DNA of 64,000 bases from the NCBI RefSeq assembly GCF_026151205.1, contig NC_087078.1, forward strand, positions 1,092,175-1,156,174. Direction: 5' to 3'. The DNA comes from Bolinopsis microptera (Eukaryota; Ctenophora; Tentaculata; Lobata; Bolinopsidae). Position 1 is the first letter of the stretch, and each line of letters starts with the position of its first letter. Below are positions 24,901 through 53,560 of the stretch, in pieces. The position numbers and the translations under genes are program-made. Under the pieces are notes generated by a model, which saw only the letters and a program-made list of their open reading frames with translations, was not told the DNA's origin and searched no databases.

Positions 24901-25639
24901 GAAGAAAGGAGATGGAGAGTACTGAGTAGTTTCACAAACATACATAGAATTAATTAAATGTTAGACAGAATAAATGCAAGCTTGTATCATTTTATTTTAT
25001 TTCTCTAGCTCCCAAGACCCGTATTTTAGCCGTTCAATCTACTTTTAGTCATCATAACTGTCATTTATTGAAATTTCTTCCTATTGATCGATAATTGTTC
25101 ATGACTTTTACAACTTTACTCACTCCCGCATATTGTCATTCATCAGATCACTGTATAATAATGTGAACGTCTTTAACTAGAATTTCTCCTTCAAAAAATC
25201 AGAACTTGAGGTGCTGAAAAGATAAAGAAAACAAGGAAATCAAAGTCGGGGCCAAACACAATGAACAGTACAGCATTGTAGAGTAAAAAATAAACTCTTT
25301 TAAAATTGTGCCCTACAGATCAGTACAATTAGTTGCACTGAACAGGTGGTATACAGTCCACTACAATTTAATAAAATGTCCACTGAAATCAGGAGCACAA
25401 TAGCACCAGCTCAAGCTTGTTGACAACTTCTATACAATCATCATTGCTAAAAGTCGCCTAGGAATTCATAAAGCTGCAACATGCAGCCAACAATACAGCA
25501 TGGACCTCAAGTGATTATGACACCGCTATTGATTAAAAATAACCTCCATCAACAAAAATGAGTAACCAGAGTAAGTATCGCAAAACATTCAGAAATTGCC
25601 ATTAAACTTTAGAACTACCAACAACTATTTACAGAATAA

Positions 25640-28294
25640 ATGTTAGAAAAAAGGATAAAAAGTTATTCAAAAAGTACAACTTGTATGGTGACCTTTATTA
25701 AGGCAGTTTTAGGCAAATTTCGAGACTCATCGGGTGATACTGTCCTCTGTGCTTGTGTTTACCGACCAGGGTCATTGACTGATGTATTTTTTGAAGATTT
25801 GGATGAGTTTATTGGGAACATATTCATGAAATACAAGAAGTTTTTAATCTGTGGTGATCTTAATATTCATTTGGATGATCATAAATCAAGAAACACGGCC
25901 AAACTGACTGAAGTATTGGCCAGCTATGGACTGCATCAATACGTGAGAGATCCAACTCACAACAAAGGACATATTCTGGATGTTGTAATCTCCTCCCATC
26001 AGATAGTCAATCCAAAGAGTGTCACAGTAGACTCGCACACCTCGGAAATGTTCCCAAACTGTGACCATTTCCCCGTTACTTTTAGCCTCACAAAAACAGT
26101 TGCAAGCAATCTCAACAAGAAAAAAGTTATCACATTCAGAAATGTCAAAGAAATTGACAAAAATTGTTTTGCGGATAATCTTGCTGAGGAATTGGTTACT
26201 GTAATGGATCCTGAGGGTCTATCACAAGCTGAAATGCCGTCATTTGAAAGCCGCATCAGCCTATACAACTCTAAGTGCCTAACTGTGCTGAATAACCATG
26301 CTCCTCTCCTCACAAAGGAAATCAAAGAACGTAAGTCTGCCCCTTGGTTCGATGGTGAATATAAAGCACTTAGAAGCCAAAGAAGAAAAGCCGAGACAAA
26401 GTGGAAAATCTCCGGATCTTTAACTGACAAGAAACACTATGAATCAGTCAGAGAGCAGTGCACAGAACTCTCAGACAGGAAGAAACATGAGTTTTTCAAA
26501 GTCGAATTCATAAAGCATTCCTATTCTTCTAAGAGTCTTTTTAGATTTGTGGACACCTTTCTTGATCGGGATAAAAGCATTGTGTTGCCTTCGTCGGAGT
26601 CTCTCAAGGACACAGTCGAAAACTTTAACGTATATTTCCAGGAGAAAATAAAGGCAATACGAAATAACTTTGATCATGTGGAGTCTGACGATCAAACGCC
26701 CTCTTACTGCGGAGAAAAACTAGCTGAGTTCTCTCCAACTACTCTAGAAGAACTAGAGGAGATAATCAAGGCATCTGAGATCAAGTCTTCTTCAATTGAC
26801 CCTCTACCTGCAAACATCTTTAAAGAAAACCTTGAGGTTCTACTACCCGTCTTAGTTGACATAGTAAATGCTTCATTATCTTCTGGCAGTATTGATGGCG
26901 CTAAACTAGCTCATATCACACCCCTGATCAAGGGCCAGGGATTAGATAGTGATAATCTCAAGAATTACAGACCAATATCTAACCTTAGTTTTGTGGGCAA
27001 GTTGATAGAAAGAGTAGTGCTCAGGCGTCTAAATGAACATCTAGAAAACAACAACCTGAACATCCCACAGCAGTCTGGATACAAATCAAAACACAGCACC
27101 GAGACTCTGCTTGTGAGAGTTGTTAACGATATACTCATTGCATCTACAGAAAGCAAGGCAACTGTTGTTCTTCTCCTAGATCTCAGCGCAGCTTTTGATA
27201 CAGTTGACCACTGCAAACTACTGAACATCCTCAGAAATGAGTTGGGAATAACAGGGACAGCTTGGAAATGGTTCAGCAGCTTCCTCACAGGTAGATGTCA
27301 AACGATTAAAGTTGGAAATGAGGAATCTTATGAGATAGTGATTAAGTTTGGAGTCCCACAGGGCTCTGTGCTGGGTCCGGTCCTGTTCAACATCTACATT
27401 CGCTCTTTGTACTCAGCAGCACATGATTTGAACTTCTCCATCCAGGGTTACGCCGACGATCATCAGCTGTATAAAAGTTTCAAGCCAAACGAGGAGCCCA
27501 CCGTCCTTATCAACGATGTTCCCAAATGTTTCCAAGAAATTAATGACTGGATGAAAAAACATTATCTACAGCTCAATGCAGGAAAAACCGAGATTCTTGT
27601 CTTTGGGACACCGCTTGTTCTCCAGCAGCTGTCTATAGGGGGCGTGTTTGTTAACTCTGAGACGTGTGTCAGGCTGTCACCTGTTGCAAAGAACCTCGGA
27701 TTTCGTCTCGACTCTCAACTAAACTTTGGTGAGCAAATCAAGCAACTTAAAACATCGTGTTTTCTGAAACTAAGAGACCTTGCTAAGATGAAAACATTCC
27801 TCACAACCAAACAGATGGGAACACTGACTCAAGCAATTGTAATCTCATCGCTTGACTACTGCAATGCACTTTACTATGGTTGTAGTCAAGCCTCAATTAC
27901 GCAGCTGCAGAACATTCAGAACCGAGCATGCCGTCTGGTTTTTGGATTAAAGAAGAGAGACTCAGTCGAGGAGAAGCTCAAATCCCTTCATTGGCTCAAG
28001 GTGAAGGAGAGGATTGAGTTTAAGTTATGCTTACTGATTTTCAAAGCAGTCAATGGTGTTGCTCCTGCATATCTGTGTGATCTAGTAACATTTGTTAGTT
28101 CGAGTAGCAGAAGAACTTCCTCCTTACACCTACCCGTCGGATCTACAAGATCACACCCAAGAGCGTTTCAGACTGTTGCTCCGAAAATCTGGAACCAACT
28201 ACCAATTGAAATTAAGACTTGTTCCAATGTTGATCTGTTCAAAACATTATTAAAAACTCACCTGTTTAAGAAAAGTTATGGCAAAAGCGATTAA
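25640..28294 (+). CDS. CR1/L2-like LINE ORF2 (left-arm copy), N-terminally short APE plus RT
   Basis: Uninterrupted 884 codons. The first 150 residues are the C-terminal half of an APE endonuclease (YRPGS at 41-45, GDLN at 72-75, CDHFPV at 141-146); the N-terminal APE motifs are missing, so the enzyme is incomplete or its start lies in another exon or frame. The RT domain has YRPIS at 443-447, catalytic LDLSAAFD with D514, GVPQGS at 571-576 and YADD at 604-607. A typical LINE tail ends at FKKSYGKSD. The 3'UTR runs to a (TTA)n tail near 28,560, where the R4/Dong-like element is inserted. The right-arm copy (49,745-52,399) encodes an identical protein. Lack of stops in both copies indicates youth or homogenisation between arms. 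Confidence 0.9.
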   Translation: MLEKRIKSYSKSTTCMVTFIKAVLGKFRDSSGDTVLCACVYRPGSLTDVFFEDLDEFIGNIFMKYKKFLICGDLNIHLDDHKSRNTAKLTEVLASYGLHQYVRDPTHNKGHILDVVISSHQIVNPKSVTVDSHTSEMFPNCDHFPVTFSLTKTVASNLNKKKVITFRNVKEIDKNCFADNLAEELVTVMDPEGLSQAEMPSFESRISLYNSKCLTVLNNHAPLLTKEIKERKSAPWFDGEYKALRSQRRKAETKWKISGSLTDKKHYESVREQCTELSDRKKHEFFKVEFIKHSYSSKSLFRFVDTFLDRDKSIVLPSSESLKDTVENFNVYFQEKIKAIRNNFDHVESDDQTPSYCGEKLAEFSPTTLEELEEIIKASEIKSSSIDPLPANIFKENLEVLLPVLVDIVNASLSSGSIDGAKLAHITPLIKGQGLDSDNLKNYRPISNLSFVGKLIERVVLRRLNEHLENNNLNIPQQSGYKSKHSTETLLVRVVNDILIASTESKATVVLLLDLSAAFDTVDHCKLLNILRNELGITGTAWKWFSSFLTGRCQTIKVGNEESYEIVIKFGVPQGSVLGPVLFNIYIRSLYSAAHDLNFSIQGYADDHQLYKSFKPNEEPTVLINDVPKCFQEINDWMKKHYLQLNAGKTEILVFGTPLVLQQLSIGGVFVNSETCVRLSPVAKNLGFRLDSQLNFGEQIKQLKTSCFLKLRDLAKMKTFLTTKQMGTLTQAIVISSLDYCNALYYGCSQASITQLQNIQNRACRLVFGLKKRDSVEEKLKSLHWLKVKERIEFKLCLLIFKAVNGVAPAYLCDLVTFVSSSSRRTSSLHLPVGSTRSHPRAFQTVAPKIWNQLPIEIKTCSNVDLFKTLLKTHLFKKSYGKSD

Positions 28295-28581
28295 TCGACA
28301 ATATAATAACTTTATGTTATTTGCTTAAACTGTTTAGGATGCAACCTAATGTCATGATCTTTTTGAACTTATTAGCAATTAGACTGTTAGCTCGCTTCAC
28401 AAGCATGTCATCTTCGTTCCAAAACTTTTTATGTCCTATGCATACACTCCTTGATAGTTATCTTGATCTAGTATCTTTGTTTCACACAATAGAGCATAAG
28501 TTTTGTGGTTTATCCACTGGGCTTAGAGTTTGTGTTTAAGCTACCAAATTTTATTATTATTATAAAGGGTCTCAATAAGAG

Positions 28582-28664
28582 GTCTCGACTGCCTAGGCGT
28601 CAAATCTTGGCAGTCGGTAGTTTTCCTCTGGCCCGGGATCAGCTGACCCTAGGGACCAGAGGGT
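28582..28664 (-). other. Two stem-loops at the 3' end of the R4/Dong-like element
   Basis: CGACTGCC…GGCAGTCG (8-bp perfect stem, 28,583-28,614) and CCTCTGG…CCAGAGG (7-bp stem, 28,626-28,663) lie next to each other just inside the element's 3' terminus. They could be the RNA structure its reverse transcriptase recognises. Confidence 0.5.
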
Positions 28665-28710
28665 AAAGGTGTAGAGACTATGTGTATCTACAAATCTTTC
28701 GAGGTTGTTT

Positions 28711-29260
28711 TTACAAGAGACAGGGCTTGCTACGCAAGGGAAGAAAACCGGGAGAAACAATCACAAATTATACAAATAAATATTATAAAACCTAGCAAAA
28801 AGAAATTCAAACAATCCTACACTACTACAAATGTTTATTACATACTACAATGTAATACACGATAAATAAATGCTGTATAATCAAGAAACAGGGCTTGCAG
28901 GGCAAGGGACGGAACACAGGGACTGGCTACAGAGTGTAGAAAACAGTGATTCAGCAAGTACCCATTGGGTATTGCTGAATCTGACCCACAAAATACCACA
29001 ATCAATACAAGAATATACAATATTTAAACAAACATCATGTTTATACAAGAAACAGGGCATGCAGAGCAAGAGAAGAAAAATAAGAGAAAAACTCCAACAC
29101 ATGTATACCCCTTAGTCCAGTAAATAACAATAATTACTTGTACACAAAACTGTATAATATGAAATACGTAACAAATACACAGTCTACCCAATATACGGGT
29201 TAAAAATTGTATAAACAAGAGACAGGGCTTGCATAGCAAGGGAAGAGATATAAGAGGACC
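28711..29260 (-). repeat. Four direct repeats with short hairpins in the 3'UTR of the R4/Dong-like element
   Basis: Copies near 28,711, 28,886, 29,046 and 29,213 (spacing 160-175 bp) share ACAAGARACAGGGCTTGC-nnn-GCAAGGGA. Three of four keep a CTTGC/GCAAG stem while the three-base loop changes (TAC, AGG, ATA). The third copy has CATGC and AGA. Confidence 0.75.
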
Positions 29261-29342
29261 AGGTAAAAAGTGTTTATTACAGTATCCAGTGAAGAATAAA
29301 CTAAATATAGAGTATCTACAGTGTATTATACTCTCAATAATA

Positions 29343-30041
29343 TCATATGTCTAAGACCATCCTGAGAATTCTGGCTGATCCAAGCAGAGCTGTCTTCTGG
29401 AGATTAGAGATGCTCAGATTGCAGTGGACTGCGTCGAGGTGTTTACGAAAGTTAATGGTGATAGTTCCTAATGCGCCTATCACCACAGGGACGATTGTGA
29501 CCTTTCGTAAATTCCAGTTCTTCTTAATTTCTCTTTTTAGGTCTTGATATTTCAGTATCTTTTCTTGTTCTCTATCCAGGATCCGGGTATCTCCTGGGAC
29601 TGCAACGTCAATGATGGTTGCTGCGTTGGTTACCTTGTCTATCAGGAGGAGATCCGGTCTGCAGTGTTCGATAACGTGGTCCGACTGGACATGGAAGTCC
29701 CACAATATCTTGACTTTTTCGTTCTCCAGCACCTTCTCTGCCCGGTGTTCGTACCACCTTTTACTGCGTGGGAAGCCGTATTCCTTGCACAGACTCCAGT
29801 GCAATGCGGCAGCTACTTTGTCATGCCGACACTTATATTCTGTCTGTGAAAGTTTTGGGCACCCATTCAGTATGTGGTCTATTGTCTCGTAATGATTTCT
29901 GCAGAGTCTGCAGAGGGGAGAAGAGCCAGGTGTTTTGTCAATCCTGTGCTTCACATAATTCGTCCTAAGTGCTTGGTCTTGGGCTGCTATCAACAATCCT
30001 TCTGTCTCCTTCTTCAAGTCTTGTTGAGTGAGCCAGTTCCA
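29343..30041 (-). CDS. C-terminal zinc-knuckle and restriction-like endonuclease of an R4/Dong-like LINE (partial)
   Basis: The frame is open from the truncation point (reading NWLTQQDLKKETEGLLIAAQ at its start) to a stop at 29,343. Counting from the internal Leu codon at 30,017, the knuckle is C36-x2-C39-x8-H48-x4-C53. The RLE core is R120-P121-D122, then D137 fourteen residues later, then K156-Y157. This is the PD-x(12-14)-D…KY arrangement of R2/R4-type LINE endonucleases. The conserved tail (TALLGSARILRMVL) is present. The reverse-transcriptase domain upstream is lost. No stops or frameshifts, so insertion is probably recent. Confidence 0.85.
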   Translation of the reverse strand, partial: WNWLTQQDLKKETEGLLIAAQDQALRTNYVKHRIDKTPGSSPLCRLCRNHYETIDHILNGCPKLSQTEYKCRHDKVAAALHWSLCKEYGFPRSKRWYEHRAEKVLENEKVKILWDFHVQSDHVIEHCRPDLLLIDKVTNAATIIDVAVPGDTRILDREQEKILKYQDLKREIKKNWNLRKVTIVPVVIGALGTITINFRKHLDAVHCNLSISNLQKTALLGSARILRMVLDI

Positions 30042-30059
30042 AGAGGTTATTATTATTAT

Positions 30060-31150
30060 TATTAAGAGGGAACTGCATTGTTATTAATATTAGATATAAA
30101 TCCACGATCTACATAAGCACTATTACACTCAGGTACTAGCATAAATTAATGATTTTCTTAGTGAATAAATAGATACATTTACAGTATACGTTAAATTTCG
30201 GTTATTCACAAATCACAGGCCGTTAGATTCATTGTCTCCTAGAGTCCTAGTGTAATGTGTAGTGTTTAGCGTGTAAGGCGTAGTGTTTAGTGTCAAATGT
30301 GGATGTGTAGTGTTTTGTGTCTCACAGCAACAAATACAAGCGATCATTAATTGTTGGATTAATACGATTATGATCTCAACTTTAATAATCTTAATCATTT
30401 AATCAAAACTTGGTTCAGTCTGCTCAGTAATATAAAATACTAGCAATAAATCAGTGTTTCAAAGTTGGTTGAAACTGTGGAGGAAAGCTTGAAGGTATAC
30501 GATTAAAAATAACTATTATAACTAACCAGGTTACAAGTAAGACAGTCAGTATGTTGCAGACTGCAGAGGTTGAGAGGTACATTAATCAGTCACAGTGTGA
30601 ACTAAAGCATCTGGCTTTGGTCTGACTTCGTTTTCACCGCACTTAGATCGTTGCACTGCTTCAAATCATCTCCTAAACAGTTAAAAACTAAAGCAGTTTA
30701 AACGAATAGTAACGCAAAATATTTTTATTAAGAATGGACCACATTAAAATCAATAAATCTTCGGCTGCAACTTCAAATTGCTACATCAATCAAAATGGAT
30801 ACTTGAAGAGCCATAAAATGATGACATTATACAATAGACATTTTACAATATTATTCCCATTATACCTTGAAAAAACTACACAGGGAATTTAAACATAAAT
30901 TTCGAGATACAATTCGAAAGGTTCGAATATCCAGACAAGATATAATAATAATAATACTGTTAGGTATCTGTGTGTGCACACAAAAATTCTTAACGACCTA
31001 CTGACATTAAGCTAGTTTTTTATTGAAGAGTGAAAAATGTTAAACAGTATATATAATATATATATACAATAAATTAAATCAAGTGATGCAATTGGCAGAG
31101 CACAAACGTTAATCCTGAGCAATAGATATCGTCTATCCTTCGTAGCTCTT
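30060..31150. other. Inverted-repeat arm segment without genes
   Basis: Matches 48,380-49,480 of the right arm. AT-rich, with short GTGTAGTGTTTA-like repeats (30,240-30,320). The small frame at 30,213-30,398 has no support. Confidence 0.5.
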
Positions 31151-31159
31151 CTCCTCAGG

Positions 31160-32430
31160 TATCAGGTTGAAGGAGACATTGGATATAGGGGCGGTCCATG
31201 CCTTCTTTGGCTTTCCATGTACACCTCTAACTGCTACTAGCACACTCCTCTTTAGTCTTTATATCCATGCTCAGGCGTGTCCTGATGTTACACATCACCT
31301 GGCTGTAGTCCTCCTTGGTCTTGGTGGCTATCAACACAGCAAGTCTCCTTATAAAACACTTGGCCTCAAGCTCAGGTGCCATTCCTCCTGTAGTGGTAAA
31401 TACAGGGAGGACAAAAATGACCCTTTCTTCAATTATTGTAGCACACTGTTCATGCATACTGGTTCTATTTCTCATTCTCGTGCAGAGTGTAGAGCTGTGG
31501 CATGGTCTTTCCTTGATATGTAGGCGATTTAGGATTGAAAATACGCATGTCAAAGAAAGTCCTCTCAAATGTGCTCCATACTCCTCTTGCTGATATATCG
31601 AGCCTAGCCTTATATCAGCATTGTTGCCCTTTTGTTGGAAGTTGGCTGATTCTATAGGTGTTTTAACAGGGGCTAAATCCTCAGCTCACATCCTTGGTCA
31701 CCAGCCTAAGGTATTCAGCAACAGAGTCTCTCACGTTGTTATGACGGTAGTTCTTACAGTTGAGGATATGATTGTGATCATTCTTGGCTCCATAATCACA
31801 GATTCTTGGGGTGTTAGGGATGTCCCAACCACACCAGAGATGAACAGCATCTCTGAAGTCTTGCTCGCTATAAGCATACCCTAGCTGTTGAATGGGGAGA
31901 CATGTTAGCCAAGCTCCTGACCCATGTTCTTGTACCAGTTGCAGTGACTCCCTAGTATTCTCATCCACTTCACTCATTATCTCAGCAAGCTCCTTCTTCA
32001 AGCGTAATTCTTTAACTAACTTGAGGCTGTTAACTCTGCCCTTTATCTTAATTTTATCCAACTTCATCAGGGATGCTTCCTGGTCATAGATGAGGTCAAC
32101 CAGCTCCTCCGTTATCTTGAGTGACGTCTGGTATTCCTTTTCCGCGCTCAACGCTACCAACCACCCCTCATCTTACAGGTAGCGCAGACATTCTCCTGTG
32201 CGGGTCAGTCACATTCCTACCAATAATTGCCGGAATTTTTTTGCATACGTCTCTCTAGCCTCCTCTCCACCTATCACTGTTCCCAGATGATGCTCCCCAT
32301 CGCATGTGATCTCTATACCAGTATCTCCAAATAAAAACATGGCTGCTGGTAGTAGCCATTTTGGGCCCTTTAGGATAAGAATAGTCTTCACTTTTTTGGG
32401 GAAGTAGCCTAACTTAGGACCGTTCAAACT
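31160..32430 (-). pseudogene. RT plus RLE-like element, decayed (left-arm copy, with 180-bp deletion)
   Basis: Minus strand. It begins with the end of a reverse transcriptase (NGPKLGYFPKKVKTILILKG), then lacks about 180 bp that the right-arm copy keeps. It continues with a helical linker, the FRDAVHLWCGWDIPNTPRIC segment, a knuckle and an RLE-like domain (ARLDISARGVWSTFERTFFD reading, frameshifted near 31,600 and stopped after ENEK). Homologous to the intact domain at 43,406-44,176. I recognise this protein family from cnidarian-type retroelements but cannot name the clade with certainty. Confidence 0.75.
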
Positions 32431-32592: not shown

Positions 32593-32925
32593 TTGGTGTG
32601 GGTAACTTCTCTGCAGTGGCTCCTAAGATGTACAAAGGACTTCATGTTACCAGGCAACATATCATTTGCATTGGCTCAATCTTTGGAATCTTTTAAGACT
32701 CTTCTAAAATCTTTCCTATTTAGACTGTCCCTTATGCTTTCATCAAAGGTTCAAGGTGCTCCACAAAGAATCAGATCATCAACTAAAGAACCACTTAGAC
32801 CAAGCAAGGGAGAAGGGAGCCTCAACAAGTTTCTTGAAACTCAGGGAAACTCTAAGAAAACCTGGGAACTTATAAATAAAATTCGTGGCAAACAGAAACG
32901 TGATATCAGACCTAAAGATAACTAA
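32593..32925 (+). pseudogene. LINE 3'-end fragment fused to the truncated start of LINE B
   Basis: The frame reads AQSLESFKTLLKSFLFRL, the typical C-terminal motif of CR1-like ORF2 proteins (arm sequence, shared with 46,597-46,680). After the arm ends at 32,746 it runs into different LINE sequence (FLETQGNSKKTWELINKIRG), which is the linker just upstream of the RT domain of LINE B. The fusion is a product of the rearrangement junction, not a gene. Confidence 0.7.
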
Positions 32926-33889
32926 TCGCAGAGTTATAGCGAATGAATTCAATAAGTATTTTGTATCCCTAGCATCTAACCTTAATGCAGCCTACACAGA
33001 ACTAGGAGAAATACAAATTAATCAGCTTCCAAGTTTCTGTGACCTCTTACCTAAATCGAGTACAGCTAATATATATCTACATGACTGCTCACCTGAAGAG
33101 GTGGCTAAGATCATATCGGAACTTAAGAATGGCAAGGCTAGTGATATACCAGTACATATAATAAAGGCAGTATCAGGTATAATTAGTCCACTACTATCGG
33201 TATTGTATAACGAATGTATGCAACAGGGAGTTTTTCCAGACGACCTAAAAGTAGGTAAAATAAGTCCAATACATAAGAAAGAAAATGCTGAGCTTCTTGA
33301 AAATTACAGGCCTATCTCAACCTTAGCGATATTTGGTAAAATACTTGAGAAGATCATATTCTCCAGGCTTTACAGTTTCTTTCAGTCGCAAGGATTATTA
33401 TATGAAAATCAATATGGCTTCAGAAAAAATCATTCCACAAGCCATGCACTTAACTTCTCTGTCGACTACATTGAAAAATCACTAAGAGATAAAAATCATG
33501 TACTAGGCATCTTCATTGATTTAAGTAAAGCTTTTGATACAATCTGTCATGATAAACTGCTTAAAAAACTGAATGATTATGGAATTCGAGGGACTGCAAA
33601 TAAATTAATAGCCAGTTACCTCTCTAATAGACAGCAATATGTTTCAGTACTTGGAGAAGAATCCGAAAAACTGTCTGTAATATTTGGTGTGCCTCAGGGG
33701 TCAGTATTAGGTCCCTTGCTTTTCATTATCTACATCAATGAAATATATAGAGTATCAGATCTAGGTAAGTTTATACTTTTTGCCGATGACACCAACATAT
33801 TTGTTGTAGATAAATGTATAAAAACACTATACTGCAAAGCTAACAAAATTCTTAAACTTGTTCATCAGTATATGAAAATAAATAAATAA
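32747..33889 (+). pseudogene. LINE B ORF2, N-terminal part: RT domain, 5'-truncated, frameshifted, split by LINE A
   Basis: No endonuclease. The linker is in one frame to about 32,920, then the RT continues in another (32,885-33,889, 334 codons). In that frame are YRPIS at 141-145, IDLSKAFD with catalytic D212, GVPQGS at 268-273 and FADD at 299-302. The frame ends artificially at AATAAATAAATAAATAAA where LINE A is inserted; the C-terminal part resumes at 40,132. Jockey/CR1-type reverse transcriptase. Two lesions (frameshift and insertion) make it dead. Confidence 0.85.
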
Positions 33890-34298
33890 ATAAATAAATA
33901 AAGTCAATTTTTACAGCACAGCAATATATATCTAAATATCAGATCCTCTGTAATCATAATGTATAAAAAAAGGAGCTTTTCTCTGTGCTGAAGGATGAAT
34001 CAAGGCAGATCATGGTTCTGTTAGCAGGCCACCCTAGTTATGGACAATACATATATATAAAATAATTAAATTATAATTTTAAAATTGTGTCAAGATTGAA
34101 CTAAAACATAACTCAGGGTAAAATAGACGTATTCCCTTCGTCAAATTAACTATTTACAATACTAAACTTAAACGAACTCCGGGTAAAATAAACGTAATCC
34201 CTTTGTCAAACTTGCTATTTACAATAAGTTAATAAATTAATACGGTTGAAAATTATGTCATATTTAATAACAATGTAGCATCAATATAATTGATACAA

Positions 34299-34651
34299 GC
34301 AGGAACCCGTCAAACCTTTAAGACTGGTGTCAAGGCTCTTTGGTGGCCGGATCAGTTTCCTACCCTAAAGTCCCCCAGTGAAAATAATTATTACCTATTT
34401 AATTCGCGTTTTTGACACCACTTGGGGGTCAAAATTTTGGGTACTAAAATTCTTATTCCTTGGCCAATTTTCGATTTTTTCATGCTGATTTGAAGGCCAT
34501 TAAAGCATTTGAATCAGTTAAAAAAGTTTCAGTTTTATATCTTGTACGGTTTTTGCGGAAACCCGTGTTAAAGTTGATGCCGTGGTGTCAGTAAAATGGT
34601 GCGGATAAATAAATATATATATATATCGTCTCGCTTTATATATAGTAAGAT
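34299..34651 (-). repeat. Dispersed repeat, copy 2, inside the LINE A 3' region
   Basis: Reverse-complement match to 9,672-9,990, including the (AT)n run and TCGTCTCGCTTTATATATAG. Its flanks differ from those of copy 1, so it is either a separate element inserted into the 3'UTR of LINE A or a 3'UTR module shared with another family. Confidence 0.75.
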
Positions 34652-34849
34652 GAGGAGCATACATAGCAGTGAGAATTGCACATAACAGGAGGACTGGAGG
34701 TATGGAGCAATAATGATTGACAGTGCACCTTTCCACTGATGTTCCTAATTTCCTGTAATAGCTTAATAGGCATGGAAATACTTTGATTGCAGGGGATGGA
34801 TTGGATTCACTTATGTACTGAGATAACTTAACCGAAATAACATAACTGC

Positions 34850-37800
34850 CTAGATACATTGGCTAGTGTTGGGTGGGATCATGAATTTATCGTAAGAGTT
34901 ATCCCCTTGGTAATTCTCATCAGTTAGCACCATATTCATAAGAGTTTCTTTGTATAACTTAGAAAATTTCTTAACGTCGTCACACTCTCTAAGGGACTTT
35001 GGTAATATGTTCCAGGCCTTAGTTCCTAGATAGTTAAACTCCTTGTGAGATCTTGATTTAGGAGTATAAAGATTGCAGTTTTCTGCCTCACGTGATCCAC
35101 CAGAAATATACGAGAATTTCCCGATAAAATGCTTTAGACATGTTTCATTGATTATACGGTACATATATGAGCTAAGATGAACCTGTCGTCTCAAACGGAG
35201 AGGAAGCCATCCCATATTTTTGTATACATTAACCGACCTCTCTCTGGTGCTTACATCTAGGGCTATTTTAGCAACCTTTTTGTACATGATATCTAACTCT
35301 CCTAGTCGTTTTTTATATGTTCTTGACCAGATGGTGTCTAAGTAGTCAAAATGTGGCAACATAAGTGCATTAGCAAACATCTTCCTGAACTTAAGAGGGA
35401 GAAGTTTTTTTGATCTATACATAGCACCAATTCTTTTGGATATCTTTTTCTTAATGTTATCAATATGTTCATTAAATGTCAATCTGCTGTCAACTATAAG
35501 TCCAAGGTACTTATGGGATTTAGTTTCACAGATTACCAAAGTAAGGTCATCACAAATTTCAACAAGGATGGCATCAAGGTTAGGCTTAGAGTCAAGGATC
35601 ATTAGTTTTGTTTTTTCATTATTCAGGGATAGTTTATTAGCCTGAAGCCATCTGATAACTAATTTCAACTCTTGTTTGATGTTACCATAGTTTCCTCTAG
35701 ATATATTGTCAAAATATAATGCACCGTCATCAGCAAATAGATAAGGTTTAGAAAATAGGCATGCATTAGGCAGGTCATTGATAAAAATGCTGAATAGAAT
35801 TGGTCCTAATATACTTCCTTGAGGCACTCCAGAGTTCAATGAATGTAAACTGCTTATCCTACTCCCAACTCTAGTTTGCTGTAATCTATCTGTGAGGAAG
35901 CTCCTAAACCAGCTCAATGCAGTATCTTTTATTCCATAATGCTTCAGCTTTTGAATGAGAATATCATGGTTAACAGTATCAAATGCCTTTCTGATGTCCA
36001 GGAAGATAATTGCAGGATGCTTGGCACTGTTCTTAGCAGTAAATATACGATCAAACAGATCTAACATGAGATAAGTTGTAGAGTGATCTTTACGGAAACC
36101 ATATTGATGCTCTGAAAGTATTCCCTTTTCATCAAGATATTGAGTCAGTTGGGAGTTCACACAAAATTCGATGCACTTTCCAAGAATCGGTAAAATTGAG
36201 ATTGGTCGATAATTACTAGGATTCTCAATATCACCATCCTTATGGATTGGGGTGACTTTTGCAACCTTGCAGCTGTTTGGCATGATGCCACTGGATAAAC
36301 TCAAATTTACAAGATGTGTTAATGGAGCAATAAATGCAGGTAAAATTTGTCTAAACACTCTCAATGGTATATGATCATTAGTGGATTTGCTACAAGGGAT
36401 ACTTGCCACATAGTCTAAGATATTGGACTCAGTTATTTCAGTAAAGCTATTCAAGCTGGTCTCGTTGTCAATCTGCTCATTTTGTAGATAAGATAGAAAT
36501 TCATTTTCATTTTCCAGCTGCACTTCTGCTTGGATCTTTGGACCTATTTCAGCAAAATATTTATTGGTGGTTTCAGCATCAAGATTGTTATTGATATTGT
36601 TAGCTTTCACAGGCAGATTTGATGCTGTCTTTATCGTTTTCCATACACCCTTTAGATCATTCATGGCACACTTGGCTTTCAGTTCTGTTGCTAAGTTAGT
36701 CTTCCTATTAATTCTAGACAAATAGGTTGAATAGTTTCTCTGCCGTTTATATGCCATCCATAATGAGTCACATTTATTACAGTGTATAAGACCATTTGGA
36801 TGTATACGTCTGTTCTTGTTGTGTGTTAAAAATTTACGGTAAAGTTTCCCTTTCAATTTCTTACTTTCTAAAAATTCTGGAGATGGCTTATGGATGTAAT
36901 CACTATGGCACTTAATTTGTTTAATTGGACAGAAGTGATCATAGTAGTGATCAATATGTTCGTTTAAACCATCAACTGCATCATTCAGACTAGTTGAATC
37001 TATTATTGGTCTATAATCACAAGTTTCCAAAAATTCTTTAAGAGCAGTAACATTCATTTTGCTGTGATCTCTTATTAGTAACTTCTTGAATTTTGAGGCC
37101 TTATGCACATTGAAATCGACAATGAACTTTACGACCTGATGATCTCCTATACAATCATCAAGGACTTTGCAGTCAAGAAACTTGGAGTAAGTGTTTGTTA
37201 TGACAACATCGATTGTGGTCTTTGTGATTCTGTTTCCTAGTTTAGCAATGCGGGTAATATCCTGAACTACCTGTACCATTCCAAACATTTTCATTGTAAT
37301 GTCTAATTTCTTATAGTTCATACTGCTGATGTTGTTTTGGTCTACATTTACATCACCCAGCCAAATAACATTCTTACTTCCTATACTCATCATGCAGTCT
37401 GTCATATAATCTAAAAATTTGTCAAGAGGACTAAACAACTCAGATCTGTAGAAACAGCAGATGAAAATATTGCAATCTGTAAGATGGATCCAAATAGCCT
37501 CGATTTGGTCATATTGCAAAACTAAGTTTAGTTGAATCATTTTAAACTTTATGTGCTCACTGATGAGAATGCCACATCCCCCATGACCGTTGTCGTTAGG
37601 ACGGTCTTTGCGGATAAAAGTAAAATTCTTGGGTAGGTTTAGACTGGCTGAGTCAATATCCGACTTAAGATTTGTTTCATTCAGGCATAAAACATCTAAT
37701 TTCTCTTTCCAGATTAGATCTTGGATTTCAAGACATTTTGGCATACCTGTTAGTCCTCCCTGCATGTTGCAATGTTCCACTGCAAGCTTTTTGGCATGGT

Positions 37801-37870
37801 ATGAAACTGTGATTTTACTAATGCACGGGTTAATGCAAGAACTGCTGTGAGAGCATGAAAATTTTTCCAA
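34850..37870 (-). CDS. LINE A ORF2: APE endonuclease plus reverse transcriptase, intact
   Basis: 1,006 codons without stops. The APE-type endonuclease (about 30-250) has N35 (HCNMQGG), E65 (NETN), GDVN at 172-175, D221 (TTIDVV) and GDH at 242-244, the expected catalytic and metal-binding set. A Cys/His pair region (HCNKCDSLW, 363-371) lies in the linker. RT (about 500-780): NYRPIS 553-558, IFLDIRKAFD with D625, GVPQGS 681-686, FADD 712-715. A LINE-type C-terminal region follows. It would nick DNA and copy its own RNA by target-primed reverse transcription. All catalytic residues I looked for are present, so it may encode an active enzyme. Similar in layout to CR1/L2 LINEs; the length is normal for that group. 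Confidence 0.95.
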   Translation of the reverse strand: MEKFSCSHSSSCINPCISKITVSYHAKKLAVEHCNMQGGLTGMPKCLEIQDLIWKEKLDVLCLNETNLKSDIDSASLNLPKNFTFIRKDRPNDNGHGGCGILISEHIKFKMIQLNLVLQYDQIEAIWIHLTDCNIFICCFYRSELFSPLDKFLDYMTDCMMSIGSKNVIWLGDVNVDQNNISSMNYKKLDITMKMFGMVQVVQDITRIAKLGNRITKTTIDVVITNTYSKFLDCKVLDDCIGDHQVVKFIVDFNVHKASKFKKLLIRDHSKMNVTALKEFLETCDYRPIIDSTSLNDAVDGLNEHIDHYYDHFCPIKQIKCHSDYIHKPSPEFLESKKLKGKLYRKFLTHNKNRRIHPNGLIHCNKCDSLWMAYKRQRNYSTYLSRINRKTNLATELKAKCAMNDLKGVWKTIKTASNLPVKANNINNNLDAETTNKYFAEIGPKIQAEVQLENENEFLSYLQNEQIDNETSLNSFTEITESNILDYVASIPCSKSTNDHIPLRVFRQILPAFIAPLTHLVNLSLSSGIMPNSCKVAKVTPIHKDGDIENPSNYRPISILPILGKCIEFCVNSQLTQYLDEKGILSEHQYGFRKDHSTTYLMLDLFDRIFTAKNSAKHPAIIFLDIRKAFDTVNHDILIQKLKHYGIKDTALSWFRSFLTDRLQQTRVGSRISSLHSLNSGVPQGSILGPILFSIFINDLPNACLFSKPYLFADDGALYFDNISRGNYGNIKQELKLVIRWLQANKLSLNNEKTKLMILDSKPNLDAILVEICDDLTLVICETKSHKYLGLIVDSRLTFNEHIDNIKKKISKRIGAMYRSKKLLPLKFRKMFANALMLPHFDYLDTIWSRTYKKRLGELDIMYKKVAKIALDVSTRERSVNVYKNMGWLPLRLRRQVHLSSYMYRIINETCLKHFIGKFSYISGGSREAENCNLYTPKSRSHKEFNYLGTKAWNILPKSLRECDDVKKFSKLYKETLMNMVLTDENYQGDNSYDKFMIPPNTSQCI

Positions 37871-38029
37871 TTTATGCTGCTATAAACTTGTCAGAATAAG
37901 ATAAATTGCAGAACTGGCAAATTTGTATGAGATAATAACAAAACTTTCTAAAACTTCAATAAACATGAGGAACAATGTGTAATTATCCCTTATCTAGATG
38001 AAATAAATGTTAACAATCTTTCTGAAAAT

Positions 38030-39904
38030 TCAAACTTGCTTATGGGCCCAATACTTCAGAAATTTAGCAAGTCGAATAACACCGCTTGTATTGAGGTGAC
38101 AGTTATCAGATATTTTTGCAGATGGTCTGGCAAAATAAAATTCTTTCCTGAATCCACTTCTATTATAGTTAAATAAATTATGGGTGCTAATGTAATTAAA
38201 ACAAGAATCTTTGCTACACATATCCTTAATAACCTTATTCAGCTCTGCCACAACATCATTGCGGCCTTTTGTACTCCTGGGAAGAATATTGAGAACATTA
38301 ATTGTTGCATTCGGATACACTGACTTGAGATAATTTAAGAGATTACTAAAGTCACCCGCTGCATCCTTCAGTGACTTTGAGCCAAAACAGACTGTGTTCA
38401 CATTATTAGTTCCTGTCATAATATAAATAATAGATGGGGATGGAACAGAGTGTAGGTCAGTTTTTAGTTTATTTAACATTACTTTGGCATCAGCCCCAGG
38501 ATAAAACAGTTTACTAGCACTAACAGTGGACGATGATAACTTGTCCGCATCAAGAAACCTGAACATAGAGCTGCTTATGAATAGGACAGACTTTTGTGAA
38601 GCTTTAGCTGACTGTTTGCAAACTGAGAGTGCAGGTGAAGAAGAGTCTGTCAGTTTGTGTCCTGAATGAGGGATGGGTGGGGGCGGTGAACGCAGACCAA
38701 ACTCAGTTGACTGAGTGATCCTAGGGGGCTTCATCAGTCTTAGGGTGATGCTGATCCGGGGTTCATCACACATTTCGTCTGGCAGTATCTCATGTTGAAA
38801 GTCAGCCTGAGACAATTTGGACATGATGAAGACATCTCCATGCTGAAGCTGCACAGAGCCCACAACTTCATTGCTGCCGTTTGATCTAATTTGCAGTGTT
38901 CTCGTCGCACCAAGTGAAATGGTTACAATATCAGAGTGTTCTACAATACATGATTCAGAATCGCTATGAGCTGGCATGAACTCTGCTCCAGTTTCATATA
39001 GATTGACGAGAATACTATTGTGTCTGAAATTGGGTAATATCACATTAATGTAGGAGCTGAGTTTAGCAAGGTAGGAATCATTGTGTACACTTTTTGGGTC
39101 ATGTGTTGCACCTGAATACTCATAGGGAAAGTCACCAAAATAAACCGATTTCCTGTTTTTAAAACCGTGACTGAACTCAAGTTCTTCCATTAATAGATCA
39201 AGTGAAAATTTAGAGAATGGACCATCATCTAGTAGGGTAACTGGTTTCACTGGTGATGGGGAACAAGTTACAGATATATTCATTGGCCCCGGTGTTATAG
39301 GATCGTAGACAGGGGCAGGGACCAAGTTTGGATATTTGTCTCTGGGCTTAGGGGTGTTGATCCGTGATTCACCAGTAGCAGTAGATACAGGGAGATCAGA
39401 CACATCATCCTCGTCTGCCATAACCTCGTTAACAACAATCTCACTGATAACAATCTCGTTTCCAACAACCTCCTGTGGAACAACCTTGTCCACGACATCG
39501 TTGTCAACAAACAAACTGTCCGATACAACATCTTCCACAACAATGTCATCTACATCAAACGCTTCTACTTGATTGATAACAACGTGTGACTGAGGGGTAA
39601 TGGTTATGATCTCACATTCAATCTCCTCTGATAAGTTTGGCAGCAAATTTTCACACTTAAAACTCTGTTCTTGTATTTGAGTTTGATCTGATATGAGACT
39701 ATCATTGTACTGAGCAATGAGATCACTAGTTCTGATAATTTCATTCAATAAAGACAACTTTTTTTCTAAAAAGTCAATCTTGATGTCTTTTGACAGACAA
39801 TTGTTACAGTTCTCTGATTTTTCAGACTGGAATGAAAAGTTCAAATGTTCTAAAGGGCGCTCACAAGAGTGGAGACTAATGTCTGAGCTCTGATTATTTG
39901 ACAT
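38030..39904 (-). CDS. LINE A ORF1: AlkB-like 2OG-Fe(II) dioxygenase plus SGNH/GDSL esterase fusion
   Basis: 624 codons. N-terminal helical segment (about 41-66, likely coiled coil), then an acidic Val/Asp-rich stretch (115-170). Residues about 250-392 match the AlkB pattern: NLYETGAEFM at 301-310, H313-x-D315, DIVTISLGATRTLQIR 325-340, HGDVFIM 355-361, distal H371, and R383-I-S-I-T-L-R389, the RxNxTxR signature with Ser for Asn. The His-to-His and Arg-to-Arg spacings agree with bacterial AlkB. Residues about 438-622 look like an SGNH hydrolase: block I FISSSM with S446, block II PG470, block III GTNN with N500, block V D600-x-x-H603. Esterase domains are known in CR1 ORF1 proteins. The AlkB-like domain suggests oxidative demethylation of RNA or DNA, which is inference. 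A normal GDS is replaced by SSS. Confidence 0.85.
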   Translation of the reverse strand: MSNNQSSDISLHSCERPLEHLNFSFQSEKSENCNNCLSKDIKIDFLEKKLSLLNEIIRTSDLIAQYNDSLISDQTQIQEQSFKCENLLPNLSEEIECEIITITPQSHVVINQVEAFDVDDIVVEDVVSDSLFVDNDVVDKVVPQEVVGNEIVISEIVVNEVMADEDDVSDLPVSTATGESRINTPKPRDKYPNLVPAPVYDPITPGPMNISVTCSPSPVKPVTLLDDGPFSKFSLDLLMEELEFSHGFKNRKSVYFGDFPYEYSGATHDPKSVHNDSYLAKLSSYINVILPNFRHNSILVNLYETGAEFMPAHSDSESCIVEHSDIVTISLGATRTLQIRSNGSNEVVGSVQLQHGDVFIMSKLSQADFQHEILPDEMCDEPRISITLRLMKPPRITQSTEFGLRSPPPPIPHSGHKLTDSSSPALSVCKQSAKASQKSVLFISSSMFRFLDADKLSSSTVSASKLFYPGADAKVMLNKLKTDLHSVPSPSIIYIMTGTNNVNTVCFGSKSLKDAAGDFSNLLNYLKSVYPNATINVLNILPRSTKGRNDVVAELNKVIKDMCSKDSCFNYISTHNLFNYNRSGFRKEFYFARPSAKISDNCHLNTSGVIRLAKFLKYWAHKQV

Positions 39905-40131
39905 AGTTATATTATCAAGAGTTCAATGTTCAGAAGCACAATAAACACTGTAAACGCAATACCTTCAGTCCAGATAGTAGTTTTGATGAGAATAGTTTTG
40001 ATGAGAAGGAGGAGGATGAGTAATCTTCAAGTACACTCACAGCAGTCCTTTGCACGTCAACACTTACGCTCGTCTATCATATCTCATACCTCAAATTATT
40101 TGTTATATAGTAGTGTTGAAAGTATTAAAAC

Positions 40132-41004
40132 TTGCTGCATATCAACACAAAGAAATGTTGTTATATCCACTTTAAGCCGAACTGTAGAAATGAACCAGAT
40201 TCAAACACCAATGAATTAGAACTGACACTGAATAATATAATAATTAAAAAGGTAGAGAAAACTAAGTTTCTTGGACTCATTATTGACCAAAAACTGAACT
40301 GGGATGCTCACTTACGAGCGTTAAATAGTAAATTGAAATGTGAGATTGGTAGACTATGTGGAATTAGACGCTGTGTACCTAAAAAACTATATAAGGACCT
40401 GTACCACACCCTTTTTGAATCACACCTATGTTATGGAATATCTGTTTGGGGAGGTGTATCAAATAATAAACTAGAAGCCATATTTAAAACACAAAAGAAA
40501 TGCATAAGAATTCTCTTTGGTGATAATGATGCGTACTTCAATAAGTTCAAAACATGTGCCAGAGTAAGGCCTATCACTAGGGATAAGACCGGTAAAGTTA
40601 TCAAGCAGATGTTAGGCAAAGATTTCTTTGAACTAGAACACAGTAAACCAATCTGTAACGAGTATAACTTCCTGACTGTCCACAATCTTCATAAGTTGCA
40701 CTGTTTACTGGAAAGGTTTAAAATTAATAAGTTCCAATCACCAGTCTCAATGTTCTCTTTATTCAACAGGTCACCAAGACGAGACAACTACTTCATCCCA
40801 CCCACTCCGTCCTCACTATTCATCTATCAATCAACTAGTATTTGGAATCACTGCCGTAAGTCAACGAGTGAAATAGACTTCTCCACTCCTATCAGTATAT
40901 TCAAGAATAATCTTAAGAAAGCTTTGTTAGAACTACAATCTAAATATGACAGACAACTATGGTGCAGTTACAACTTTGACGCAAATGAATTATCATTGAA
41001 ATAG
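40132..41004 (+). pseudogene. LINE B ORF2, C-terminal part
   Basis: Continues the RT of 32,885-33,889 after the LINE A insertion. It reads HINTKKCCYIHFKPN, then KTKFLGLIIDQKLNWDAHL (RT thumb region typical of Jockey/CR1 LINEs), SHLCYGISVWGG, TQKKCIRILFG, and a normal C-terminal tail ending NELSLK. Together the halves make a LINE lacking its endonuclease. The 290-codon stretch has no stop, so the main lesions are truncation and insertion. Confidence 0.85.
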
Positions 41005-46908: not shown

Positions 46909-48420
46909 TTGAACGGTCCTAAGTTAGGCTACTTCCCCAAAAAAGTGAAGACTATTCTTATCCTAAAGGGCCCAAAATGGCTACTACCAGCAGCCATGTT
47001 TTTATTTGGAGATACTGGTATAGAGATCACATGCGATGGGGAGCATCATCTGGGAACAGTGATAGGTGGAGAGGAGGCTAGAGAGACGTATGCAAAAAAA
47101 TAAAGTAGAAAAATGGGTGAAGGATGTAGAAGAGTTGTCAGAAATTGCTCTTGATGAACCTCAGGCAGCCCTATCATTGTATACCAAAGCCCTCTGGTAT
47201 CGGTGGACCATTGTGATGCGCACCATCCAAAACACTATTAATACCTCTTCATCCCATTGGAGAAGTGTACAAGAGAAAAGTTCATTCCGGCAATTATTGG
47301 TAGGAATGTGACTGACCCGCACAGGAGAATGTCTGCGCTACCTGTAAGATGAGGGGTGGTTGGTAGCGTTGAGCCAGTAGAGATCGCGGAAAAGGAATAC
47401 CAGACGTCACTCAAGATAACGGAGGAGCTGGTTGACCTCATCTATGACCAGGAAGCATCCCTGATGAAGTTGGATAAAATTAAGATAAAGGGCAGAGTTA
47501 ACAGCCTCAAGTTAGTTAAAGAATTACGCTTGAAGAAGGAGCTTGCTGAGATAATGAGTGAAGTGGATGAGAATACTAGGGAGTCACTGCAACTGGTACA
47601 AGAACATGGGTCAGGAGCTTGGCTAACATGTCTCCCCATTCAACAGCTAGGGTATGCTTATAGCGAGCAAGACTTCAGAGATGCTGTTCATCTCTGGTGT
47701 GGTTGGGACATCCCTAACACCCCAAGAATCTGTGATTATGGAGCCAAGAATGATCACAATCATATCCTCAACTGTAAGAACTACCGTCATAACAACGTGA
47801 GAGACTCTGTTGCTGAATACCTTAGGCTGGTGACCAAGGATGTGAGCTGAGGATTTAGCCCCTGTTAAAACACCTATAGAATCAGCCAACTTCCAACAAA
47901 AGGGCAACAATGCTGATATAAGGCTAGGCTCGATATATCAGCAAGAGGAGTATGGAGCACATTTGAGAGGACTTTCTTTGACATGCGTATTTTCAATCCT
48001 AAATCGCCTACATATCAAGGAAAGACCATGCCACAGCTCTACACTCTGCACGAGAATGAGAAATAGAACCAGTATGCATGAACAGTGTGCTACAATAATT
48101 GAAGAAAGGGTCATTTTTGTCCTCCCTGTGTTTACCACTACAGGAGGAATGGCACCTGAGCTTGAGGCCAAGTGTTTTATAAGGAGACTTGCTGTGTTGA
48201 TAGCCACCAAGACCAAGGAGGACTACAGCCAGGTGATGTGTAACATCAGGACACGCCTGAGCATGGATATAAAGACTAAAGAGGAGTGTGCTAGTAGCAG
48301 TTAGAGGTGTACATGGAAAGCCAAAGAAGGCATGGACCGCCCCTATATCCAATGTCTCCTTCAACCTGATACCTGAGGAGAAGAGCTACGAAGGATAGAC
48401 GATATCTATTGCTCAGGATT
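46909..48420 (+). pseudogene. RT plus RLE-like element, decayed (right-arm copy, less deleted)
   Basis: Reads NGPKLGYFPKKVKTILILKG…HHLGTVIGGEEARETYAKK, frameshift near 47,100, then VEKWVKDVEELSEIALDEPQ…YRWTIVMRTI (end of an RT). A second frame (47,356-47,850) has the helical linker and FRDAVHLWCGWDIPNTPRIC. The RLE-like domain follows across a frameshift near 47,930 (FERTFFDMRI) with a stop after HENEK. Then TTGGMAPELEAKCFIRRLAV and MCNIRTRLSMD. At least three frame breaks: dead. Confidence 0.8.
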
Positions 48421-49744
48421 AACGTTTGTGCTCTGCCAATTGCATCACTTGATTTAATTTATTGTATTATATATATTATATATACTGTTTAACATTTTTC
48501 ACTCTTCAATAAAAAACTAGCTTAATGTCAGTAGGTCGTTAAGAATTTTTGTGTGCACACACAGATACCTAACAGTATTATTATTATTATATCTTGTCTG
48601 GATATTCGAACCTTTCGAATTGTATCTCGAAATTTATGTTTAAATTCCCTGTGTAGTTTTTTCAAGGTATAATGGGAATAATATTGTAAAATGTCTATTG
48701 TATAATGTCATCATTTTATGGCTCTTCAAGTATCCATTTTGATTGATGTAGCAATTTGAAGTTGCAGCCGAAGATTTATTGATTTTAATGTGGTCCATTC
48801 TTAATAAAAATATTTTGCGTTACTATTCGTTTAAACTGCTTTAGTTTTTAACTGTTTAGGAGATGATTTGAAGCAGTGCAACGATCTAAGTGCGGTGAAA
48901 ACGAAGTCAGACCAAAGCCAGATGCTTTAGTTCACACTGTGACTGATTAATGTACCTCTCAACCTCTGCAGTCTGCAACATACTGACTGTCTTACTTGTA
49001 ACCTGGTTAGTTATAATAGTTATTTTTAATCGTATACCTTCAAGCTTTCCTCCACAGTTTCAACCAACTTTGAAACACTGATTTATTGCTAGTATTTTAT
49101 ATTACTGAGCAGACTGAACCAAGTTTTGATTAAATGATTAAGATTATTAAAGTTGAGATCATAATCGTATTAATCCAACAATTAATGATCGCTTGTATTT
49201 GTTGCTGTGAGACACAAAACACTACACATCCACATTTGACACTAAACACTACGCCTTACACGCTAAACACTACACATTACACTAGGACTCTAGGAGACAA
49301 TGAATCTAACGGCCTGTGATTTGTGAATAACCGAAATTTAACGTATACTGTAAATGTATCTATTTATTCACTAAGAAAATCATTAATTTATGCTTGTACC
49401 TGAGTGTAATAGTGCTTATGTAGATCGTGGATTTATATCTAATATTAATAACAATGCAGTTCCCTCTTAATAATAATAATAATAATAAAATTTGGTAGCT
49501 TAAACACAAACTCTAAGCCCAGTGGATAAACCACAAAACTTATGCTCTATTGTGTGAAACAAAGATACTAGATCAAGATAACTATCAAGGAGTGTATGCA
49601 TAGGACATAAAAAGTTTTGGAACGAAGATGACATGCTTGTGAAGCGAGCTAACAGTCTAATTGCTAATAAGTTCAAAAAGATCATGACATTAGGTTGCAT
49701 CCTAAACAGTTTAAGCAAATAACATAAAGTTATTATATTGTCGA

Positions 49745-53139: not shown

Positions 53140-53560
53140 GGTTTATTTTTTAAATTTTTTATAATTATATGGCAGATTTATTTTATTTTAAATATATAGC
53201 AATGGCCAAACCACATTGTACATTGTTTGGTATCATATTTATGTATGCATACTTATTACTAACTGTATATAATTTCAATAATTTTCGGGGCTCAAGTCAG
53301 GACGTCTCGTCCCACGAGTAAAGTTGTAAGCTGAGTACATACTTTTAGATCATCTCACCTCGTACGGTGAAATGGGGAAAGTTTTGCTTCAGCCTGGTGT
53401 GTTGAGTGCTTCCCAAGTTTTGGGATCCAAAAATATGATCACCACGAACACTACTTAAGAGTTAAAACATGAACTTATCACACAACTGCAATGATTCCAA
53501 GAAATAATTGCAGTTACTTAATATATATTATATAGTCTACACGGTCTCTGAATAAAAGAT
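53140..53560 (+). repeat. Dispersed repeat (GACGTCTCGTCCCA family), right-arm copy
   Basis: Mirror of 24,479-24,900. Ends near TGCAATGATTCCAAGAAATA. Related to 41,205-41,610. Confidence 0.7.

Follow-up and report, generated by a model that had tools for sequence, protein, structure and literature searches.

AlkB-type dioxygenase and SGNH esterase domains joined in the ORF1 of ctenophore LINEs, with related AlkB domains in Helitrons of the same genome

What would an AlkB-type dioxygenase do inside a retrotransposon? The question is raised by a long interspersed element (LINE) in a 64,000-nucleotide stretch of the Bolinopsis microptera genome (NC_087078.1, positions 1,092,175 to 1,156,174; hereafter the window, whose coordinates are used throughout). 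Its first open reading frame, ORF1 (38030..39904, minus strand; 624 amino acids uninterrupted by a stop, delimited by the frame itself and by genome matches), had been read in a first-pass annotation as an AlkB-like domain fused to an SGNH hydrolase, beside an ORF2 that encodes a reverse transcriptase (RT). This reading is borne out by hidden Markov model matches, a PDB profile and the predicted fold, and further by the number of copies, by purifying selection and by the recurrence of the arrangement across about 14 LINE families. Beyond this element, many LINE families of this one genome have related AlkB domains, and so do its Helitrons.

The AlkB-type Fe(II)/2-oxoglutarate (2OG) dioxygenase domain spans residues 245-393 (38726..39172, minus strand), on the evidence of Pfam, the PDB profile, the AlphaFold model with its VIA alignments, and the ratio of nonsynonymous to synonymous substitution rates (dN/dS) in related families. 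The Pfam model 2OG-FeII_Oxy_2 matches residues 261-389 with E = 3.6e-18 and 66.9 bits (cut-off 31.2). Against PDB, the window ORF1 by itself matches human ALKBH3 (8.4e-15) and ALKBH2 (1.8e-6). A profile of 12 ORF1s, of which the 11 others are 23-43% identical to the window ORF1, ranks human ALKBH3 (3.4e-27) above ALKBH2 (8.7e-24), ALKBH8 (5e-13) and E. coli AlkB (8e-9). A nematode DNA-6mA demethylase follows at 0.0095, and the 57 PDB sequences that this profile matches at E <= 0.01 include neither FTO nor ALKBH5. A TET/JBP-type dioxygenase was rejected because the best matches are ALKBH2 and ALKBH3, no search having been aimed at TET/JBP. The SGNH hydrolase (esterase) domain occupies residues 436-624 (38033..38599, minus strand) and is basic, with a computed pI of 9.7. 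It was assigned from its fold, from Pfam matches that both fall under the cut-off (Lipase_GDSL_2 at residues 489-607, E = 8e-5; Lipase_GDSL, 4e-4), and from the 12-ORF1 profile, which matches 2hsj at 3.7e-11 and the ZfL2-1 ORF1 esterase 4c1b at 1.3e-7. The N-terminus (39680..39808, minus strand) carries C33-x2-C36, unchanged in all six aligned ORF1s, and then a stretch that looks coiled-coil-like by eye. No RRM or CCHC match is listed for the ORF1s given a Pfam scan, namely that of the window and those of related families.

Structure prediction, which the annotation had proposed as a check on the double-stranded beta-helix, was made for residues 200-624 with the 12 aligned ORF1s. The AlphaFold model (mean pLDDT 78.3, pTM 0.46) consists of two domains and a low-confidence linker (model residues 195-234), and the AlkB core, mostly at pLDDT 80-96, is predicted to form the double-stranded beta-helix. 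When the model was compared with PDB by Foldseek, ALKBH2 and ALKBH3 were matched at 3.1e-15 and 3.9e-15 (TM by target 0.71 and 0.76), and ALKBH5 was matched as well, at 3.6e-9. VIA-align gave Z scores of 22.8 for ALKBH2 (2.3 A, 172 residues) and 21.0 for ALKBH3 (2.7 A, 174 residues). The second domain aligned with a sialic acid esterase (Z 20.1; 2.3 A, 170 residues) and with PAF-AH (Z 19.9; 3.8 A, 187 residues); the ZfL2-1 esterase is not among the 50 VIA matches listed, which has no bearing on membership. The predicted fold and the residues discussed below point to the ALKBH2/ALKBH3 type more than to FTO or ALKBH5.

All the proposed AlkB ligands and motifs are present in ORF1, namely H313-S-D315, H371, R383-x5-R389, NLYETG (301-306) and HGDVF (355-359). 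The HxD...H...R residues are also retained in other family members: H313, D315, E317, H371, R383 and R389 are invariant in the 12 aligned ORF1s, and the iron/2OG set (equivalents of ALKBH2 H171, D173, H236, R248 and R254) is kept in 17/17 LINE family rows, as are the equivalents of ALKBH2 E175, Y122 and Y161. The F124 equivalent is always aromatic (Y in 15 rows, F in two). The ALKBH2 numbering was deduced from R110 and F102 in PDB titles, and we take these residues to have the roles known for them in ALKBH2. A wider table of 34 LINE and six Helitron rows, near-identical copies included, agrees with the 17-row table. The rows of both residue tables were excised from strong Pfam hits by means of a motif pattern and are not a random sample. 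A motif pattern also delimited the rows of the first and final AlkB trees below; it was loosened for three rows added to the final tree, no row failed in the wider table, and loci L158, L159 and L161 stand outside the 17 rows. In the esterase, S446, G470, N500 and D600-x2-H603 are all found as annotated, but G470 is invariant only among six close ORF1s; across the wider 12 the invariant residues are S446, G498, N500 and H603.

Purifying selection across relatives is evident as well. For the AlkB part, ten pairs have dS <= 1.1; nine of them give a dN/dS of 0.04-0.23, and the remaining value, 0.49, comes from eight changes only; the other five of the 15 pairs had dS above 1.6 or beyond the method. 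In nine of these ten pairs the region before AlkB, which in the three Helitron pairs includes the SGNH domain, exceeds AlkB in dN/dS; the exception is L024/L027, where dS of that region is saturated.

The element that carries this ORF1 is young, intact and recently mobile. By comparison with seven other copies (L002-L008 and L041-L047), the whole LINE lies at about 33875..40131 on the minus strand, from its 5' end (GTTTTAATAC...) to a microsatellite-like (TTTA)n tail at the 3' end (33875..33902, minus strand). ORF2 (34850..37870, minus strand; 1006 amino acids, identified by Pfam and genome matches) contains an RT (RVT_1, 4.9e-37) and a putative endonuclease, whose matches of 2e-4 and 5e-4 are below the Pfam cut-off; the endonuclease is clear (3.4e-14) in ORF2 of L023, from another AlkB family. 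The genome searched comprises 264,652,675 bases in 232 contigs. On the host side, one ionotropic glutamate receptor frame (L151) matches ML032222a, a Mnemiopsis protein, with 407 bits over a chain of 256 residues, as against 243 bits for the top kainate receptor; for a second such frame (L148), ML032222a is absent from the 60 of 387 matches listed. With 71 of 983 candidates scored, the window ORF1 returned at least 81 rows; of the 81 listed, 19 run from residue 1 to residue 624 with no stop, at 99-100% identity, while additional rows at 36-53% identity belong to other families. The window ORF2 returned at least 47 rows (46 of 6555 candidates scored), 21 of which cover residues 1-1006 without a stop. 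Divergence among eight copies is 0.11-0.46% over ORF1 and part of ORF2. The description of the LINE as intact holds, with both frames free of stops and many near-identical copies, and chance or an assembly artefact is ruled out by the many full-length copies together with the Pfam and PDB E-values. The 5' ends of the window family (L002-L008) are of two kinds, GTTTTAATAC... and AAACTAATTAC..., ahead of near-identical ORF1s, with four copies of each kind when the window is included.

The search for other ORF1s with both domains beside an RT ORF2 uncovered many LINE families in the same genome. PF13532 gave at least 151 matches (150 of 587 candidates scored), and all rows listed exceed the curated cut-off. 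At least four of the matches listed are cellular: L009 matches ALKBH2 at 3.9e-60, L010 matches ALKBH3 at 2.5e-39, L011 clusters with ALKBH3 in the final tree, and L033 combines AlkB with a methyltransferase, as in ALKBH8. Nearly all the remaining AlkB loci fetched are LINE ORF1s with AlkB followed by SGNH, and the families scanned have an endonuclease and/or RT match downstream. In some loci (e.g., L017, L036, L038, L039 and L159) the SGNH domain was read by motif, since Pfam lists no GDSL/SGNH at the limit used. By our own grouping of the sequences we count about 14 AlkB ORF1 families: A (the window), B (L024/L027), C (L025), D (L026/L012/L014), E (L017-L019/L030/L032), F (L021/L028/L031, with F2, L039), G (L022), H (L023, with H2, L036), I (L034/L037/L038), J (L035/L040), K (L153/L154), L (L156, its AlkB by motif only) and M (L155); L158 and L159 are further cases. 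A host ALKBH gene adjoining a LINE is ruled out by the single frame and by the number of families. Viral contigs searched with the window AlkB gave nothing.

In some of these ORF1s a PHD-like finger precedes AlkB, below the Pfam cut-off. Fingers of this kind, all likewise below cut-off, occur at the start of ORF2 and in some cases in ORF1 in L021, L023, L036, L155 and L158, those in ORF2 of L155 and L158 being judged by eye. Chromatin-reader and demethylase modules may therefore be united in one element.

Not every LINE of this genome has the domain. As a control, we inspected the regions upstream of six RT places, which were picked from strong RT hits, neither for AlkB nor at random. L158 and L159 have an AlkB-SGNH ORF1, whereas L157 (split into two frames) and L160 have CCHC/PHD-like ORF1s, on sub-cut-off matches, in which AlkB was not detected; in L161 the frame takes in SGNH and just the end of AlkB, and the L162 stretch holds ORF2 only. 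This mixture shows that AlkB-SGNH is one of several ORF1 types in the genome.

The same two enzymes recur in a different class of element. A giant frame of 3388 amino acids (L015 and its continuation L152) belongs to a Helitron: L015 encodes, in order, SGNH (10-177), AlkB (488-620), DUF6570 and Helitron_like_N (1e-7), and L152 continues with a PIF1 helicase (3.3e-22). The order of SGNH and AlkB is thus the reverse of that in the LINEs. This single frame (L015:2883-8999 with L152) also holds a long Ala/Pro-rich repeat between SGNH and AlkB. A genome search with the Helitron AlkB (150 of 728 candidates scored) recovered at least ten places where 155-156 of its 156 residues align at 76% identity or more; fragments were found too, and LINE family K came next at 42-44% identity. 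We assign those ten places to a single Helitron group, on tests for Rep and helicase that covered one copy (L015/L152). The SGNH start was seen in L013 and L016 as well. In appearance, L013, L016, L020, L029 and L065 resemble the L015 Helitron, the Rep and helicase being known from L015/L152.

How are these AlkB domains related to each other? The final, unrooted AlkB tree has 46 rows, 20 from transposons and 26 cellular, bacterial or viral. Sampling took in 12 of 80 bacterial loci and, of 16 viral loci in all, left out L053, L059, L061 and L062 (failed pattern), L052 (bad translation) and L058; the second and final trees omit two Helitron rows. All 20 transposon AlkBs fall on one side of a branch that separates them from the other 26 (95/93), and the same holds (90/96) in a second tree without the long rows ALKBH8 and VIR_L063. 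The transposon AlkBs are not nested in cellular ALKBH2 or ALKBH3, and they are apart from bacterial and viral AlkBs as well, which marks them as members of the AlkB superfamily and not as orthologues of ALKBH2 or ALKBH3. In the final tree the Helitron AlkB groups with LINE family K (100/99), and monophyly of the LINE AlkBs by themselves is rejected (p-AU 0.0272). These groupings suggest that AlkB was transferred between LINEs and Helitrons, one way or the other.

Exchange among the LINEs themselves is also probable. The RT trees, which contain only RTs of this genome, no named LINE RTs, and drew long-branch warnings, unite families A-D (98/99) and F/G/I (90/86) and place E and K on very long branches. 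The AlkB ORF1s therefore accompany widely diverged RTs, and on this ground the AlkB domain in LINEs is probably old. L025 and L026 have 97.9% of their ORF2 DNA in common but only 69% over most of ORF1, and identity changes some 18 bases ahead of the L025 ORF2 frame; near-identical ORF2s next to diverged ORF1s make an ORF1 exchange between LINE families probable. Such exchange has been described for L2/CR1 lineages (PMC4120745).

The architecture has a partial precedent. Type IV ORF1s of CR1/L2 LINEs, exemplified by ZfL2-1 ORF1p (PDB 4c1a/4c1b, PMC3905857), likewise have a C-terminal SGNH domain with catalytic Ser/Asn/His (direct 4c1b match of 1.3e-7) and an RT ORF2 after ORF1, and their N-terminal Cys/coiled-coil region may have its counterpart in the C33-x2-C36 and coiled-coil-like stretch here; they differ from the present ORF1 in that here an AlkB dioxygenase stands between the N-terminal and esterase parts (typing in PMC4120745). 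A 2014 survey found esterase ORF1s in two exclusively vertebrate groups only (PMC4120745), whereas the present ones are in a ctenophore. SGNH domains are known to travel: GDSL sharing has been noted among rotifer retroelements (PMC5408684), and Texim genes, SGNH hydrolases related to CR1 esterases, are carried by fish Helitrons (PMC4021074). Texim is a separate gene with introns and AlkB is not mentioned in the PMC4021074 passages, whereas here SGNH, AlkB, Rep and helicase share one 3388-amino-acid frame. The closest parallel for the dioxygenase is an orchid Ty3/Gypsy element with an AlkB (2-ODD) ORF whose product is active on RNA and demethylates m6A in vitro (PMC9289625). It is likewise a transposable element encoding an AlkB-type demethylase; by its description it is set apart as a plant long terminal repeat (LTR) element with a separate extra ORF of m6A type, where we find a fusion with the esterase in LINE ORF1s of many families in an animal. 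Human ALKBH3 and ALKBH2 share the predicted fold, the iron/2OG ligands, the F124 aromatic and the E175 position with the ORF1 domain, which differs in belonging to a retrotransposon protein, in often having N or S at the D174 position and in standing apart in the tree. Plant flexiviruses also carry AlkB, reported to repair RNA; likened by description, both AlkBs serve an RNA replicon, although the flexiviruses are RNA viruses. Among the open-access papers listed, none reports an AlkB domain in LINEs or Helitrons as far as titles and the starts of abstracts tell, and an earlier mention may exist. So far as that survey reaches, we found no description of an AlkB-esterase fusion ORF1 for LINEs.

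What, then, could the dioxygenase contribute? A LINE copies several kilobases of its own RNA at the target, and reverse transcriptases are stopped by N1-methylated A or N3-methylated C, from which ALKBH2/3-type enzymes remove the methyl group. The explanation that we prefer, and to which we would give an even chance of being right, is that the ORF1 protein is a known esterase-type ORF1 with an ALKBH2/3-type dioxygenase placed between its N-terminal and SGNH parts. It would coat the element RNA, and in the resulting ribonucleoprotein (RNP) the AlkB domain would clear single-stranded RNA or first-strand cDNA of m1A/m3C-type methyl groups, lesions that would block the RT. The basic esterase domain would tether the RNP to membranes. 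This proposal draws on the PDB profile ranking, the kept ligands, the AlkB dN/dS, the young copies, the Helitron with SGNH and AlkB, the orchid AlkB active on RNA, and the pI of 9.7 together with the ZfL2-1 esterase, which attaches to acidic membranes via surface charge (PMC3905857). Helitrons, being rolling-circle elements, share a single-stranded intermediate with LINEs, and their related AlkB would be explained if both kinds of element had to keep such nucleic acid clean.

The target could instead be a mark applied by the host. An AlkB that erases m6A, m1A or DNA 6mA from transposon RNA or DNA would counter a modification that lowers stability or flags the element for silencing. The host does have MT-A70-type genes (seven exon-level matches), the orchid Gypsy enzyme demethylates m6A in vitro (PMC9289625), and AlkBs spread over many LINE families and Helitrons, with ORF1 exchange, look like a shared advantage against the host. 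Seven MT-A70 and two DNA_methylase matches are nevertheless few, and the nearest structures are ALKBH3 and ALKBH2 rather than ALKBH5 or FTO (though ALKBH5 matches by fold, as above), so we regard such an eraser as possible but rather doubtful. It is improbable that the AlkB fold is just a nucleic-acid-binding module of the ORF1 protein whose catalysis is irrelevant: with no RRM or CCHC match listed for the scanned ORF1s something else must bind RNA, but pure binding would not hold five iron/2OG ligands invariant in 12 ORF1s and 17/17 family rows. Host ALKBH2, ALKBH3 and ALKBH8 are potential donors for a recent chance capture that left a functionless domain in the element, and family E could have made a capture of its own; yet the transposon AlkBs are not nested in host ALKBH2 or ALKBH3 and are common to about 14 LINE families with widely diverged RTs, under purifying selection, which makes this account very improbable.

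Several observations weigh against our preferred explanation, in which AlkB clears lesions from the element's own nucleic acid, or against other parts of our reading. The two LINE lineages without detected AlkB indicate that retrotransposition as such can do without the domain, and the host's own ALKBH2, ALKBH3 and ALKBH8 weaken a pure need for repair. The domain is not uniform either. The equivalent of ALKBH2 D174 is D in only 6/17 LINE family rows (N in nine, S in two) and R in L159, and specificity may therefore have shifted; the R110 equivalent is R in 13/17 LINE rows, replaced in the other four and S in all six Helitron rows. L156 (family L) has no Pfam AlkB at E <= 0.05, its AlkB being read from motifs and from a long branch in the tree, and L161 retains only the end of AlkB in frame. 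The residue counts are partly circular, since the rows were cut with a motif pattern. As for the trees, the first one (47 rows) puts family E with cellular and viral rows, so that the transposon AlkBs are not on one side; LINE-only monophyly is not rejected in the second (p-AU 0.236); and the Helitron AlkB moved from LINE F/G in the first and second trees, which lacked family K, to LINE K in the final one. Family E is the transposon row closest to cellular AlkBs in the final tree, and with the trees unrooted a separate capture of AlkB by family E is possible.

Tentatively, and with somewhat less confidence than the lesion-clearing explanation, we suggest that AlkB and SGNH are an exchangeable enzyme pair of two unrelated transposon classes, LINEs and Helitrons, in one animal lineage, swapped between them and between LINE families, which would strip host-applied or damage-derived modification from single-stranded intermediates. 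If true, this would amount to an arms-race-style, transposon-encoded system of nucleic-acid demethylation in animals. Retrotransposons seem very rarely to encode an enzyme that edits nucleic-acid methylation, and the one tested case that we found is the plant LTR element. Here AlkB is under selection and occurs in very young copies. A question that is difficult to approach by other means becomes testable, namely whether base methylation of RNA or cDNA limits non-LTR retrotransposition, and one genome supplies the natural controls: LINEs that have AlkB, LINEs that lack it, and AlkB-bearing Helitrons.

The AlkB LINE is inserted within the RT frame of another LINE on the plus strand, splitting it into a left piece (32876-33886; RVT_1, 2.3e-31) and a right piece (40129-41001), which was read as the continuation by inspection and has no Pfam match at E <= 0.01. 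A target-site duplication was looked for at eight copies and none was clear at any of the eight. By inspection, the 3' untranslated region contains an insertion of about 350 bp with approximate ends (34303..34655), which none of the seven other compared copies has. Low-complexity tandem-repeat frames at 13598-14314 (minus), 15075-16764 (minus) and 62942-63571 are improbable as genes. A large inverted repeat flanks the AlkB LINE, which lies in its spacer (21396-32149 versus 47382-56643); its three arm pairs of 7168, 1018 and 1086 nucleotides are each 100% complementary, so that either a palindrome of recent origin or a fold-back in the assembly may lie behind it. LINE ORF2 sequence is found at 25640-28291 (plus) and 49748-52399 (minus), with a full-length relative in L157, whose ORF1 is PHD/CCHC-like with AlkB not detected.

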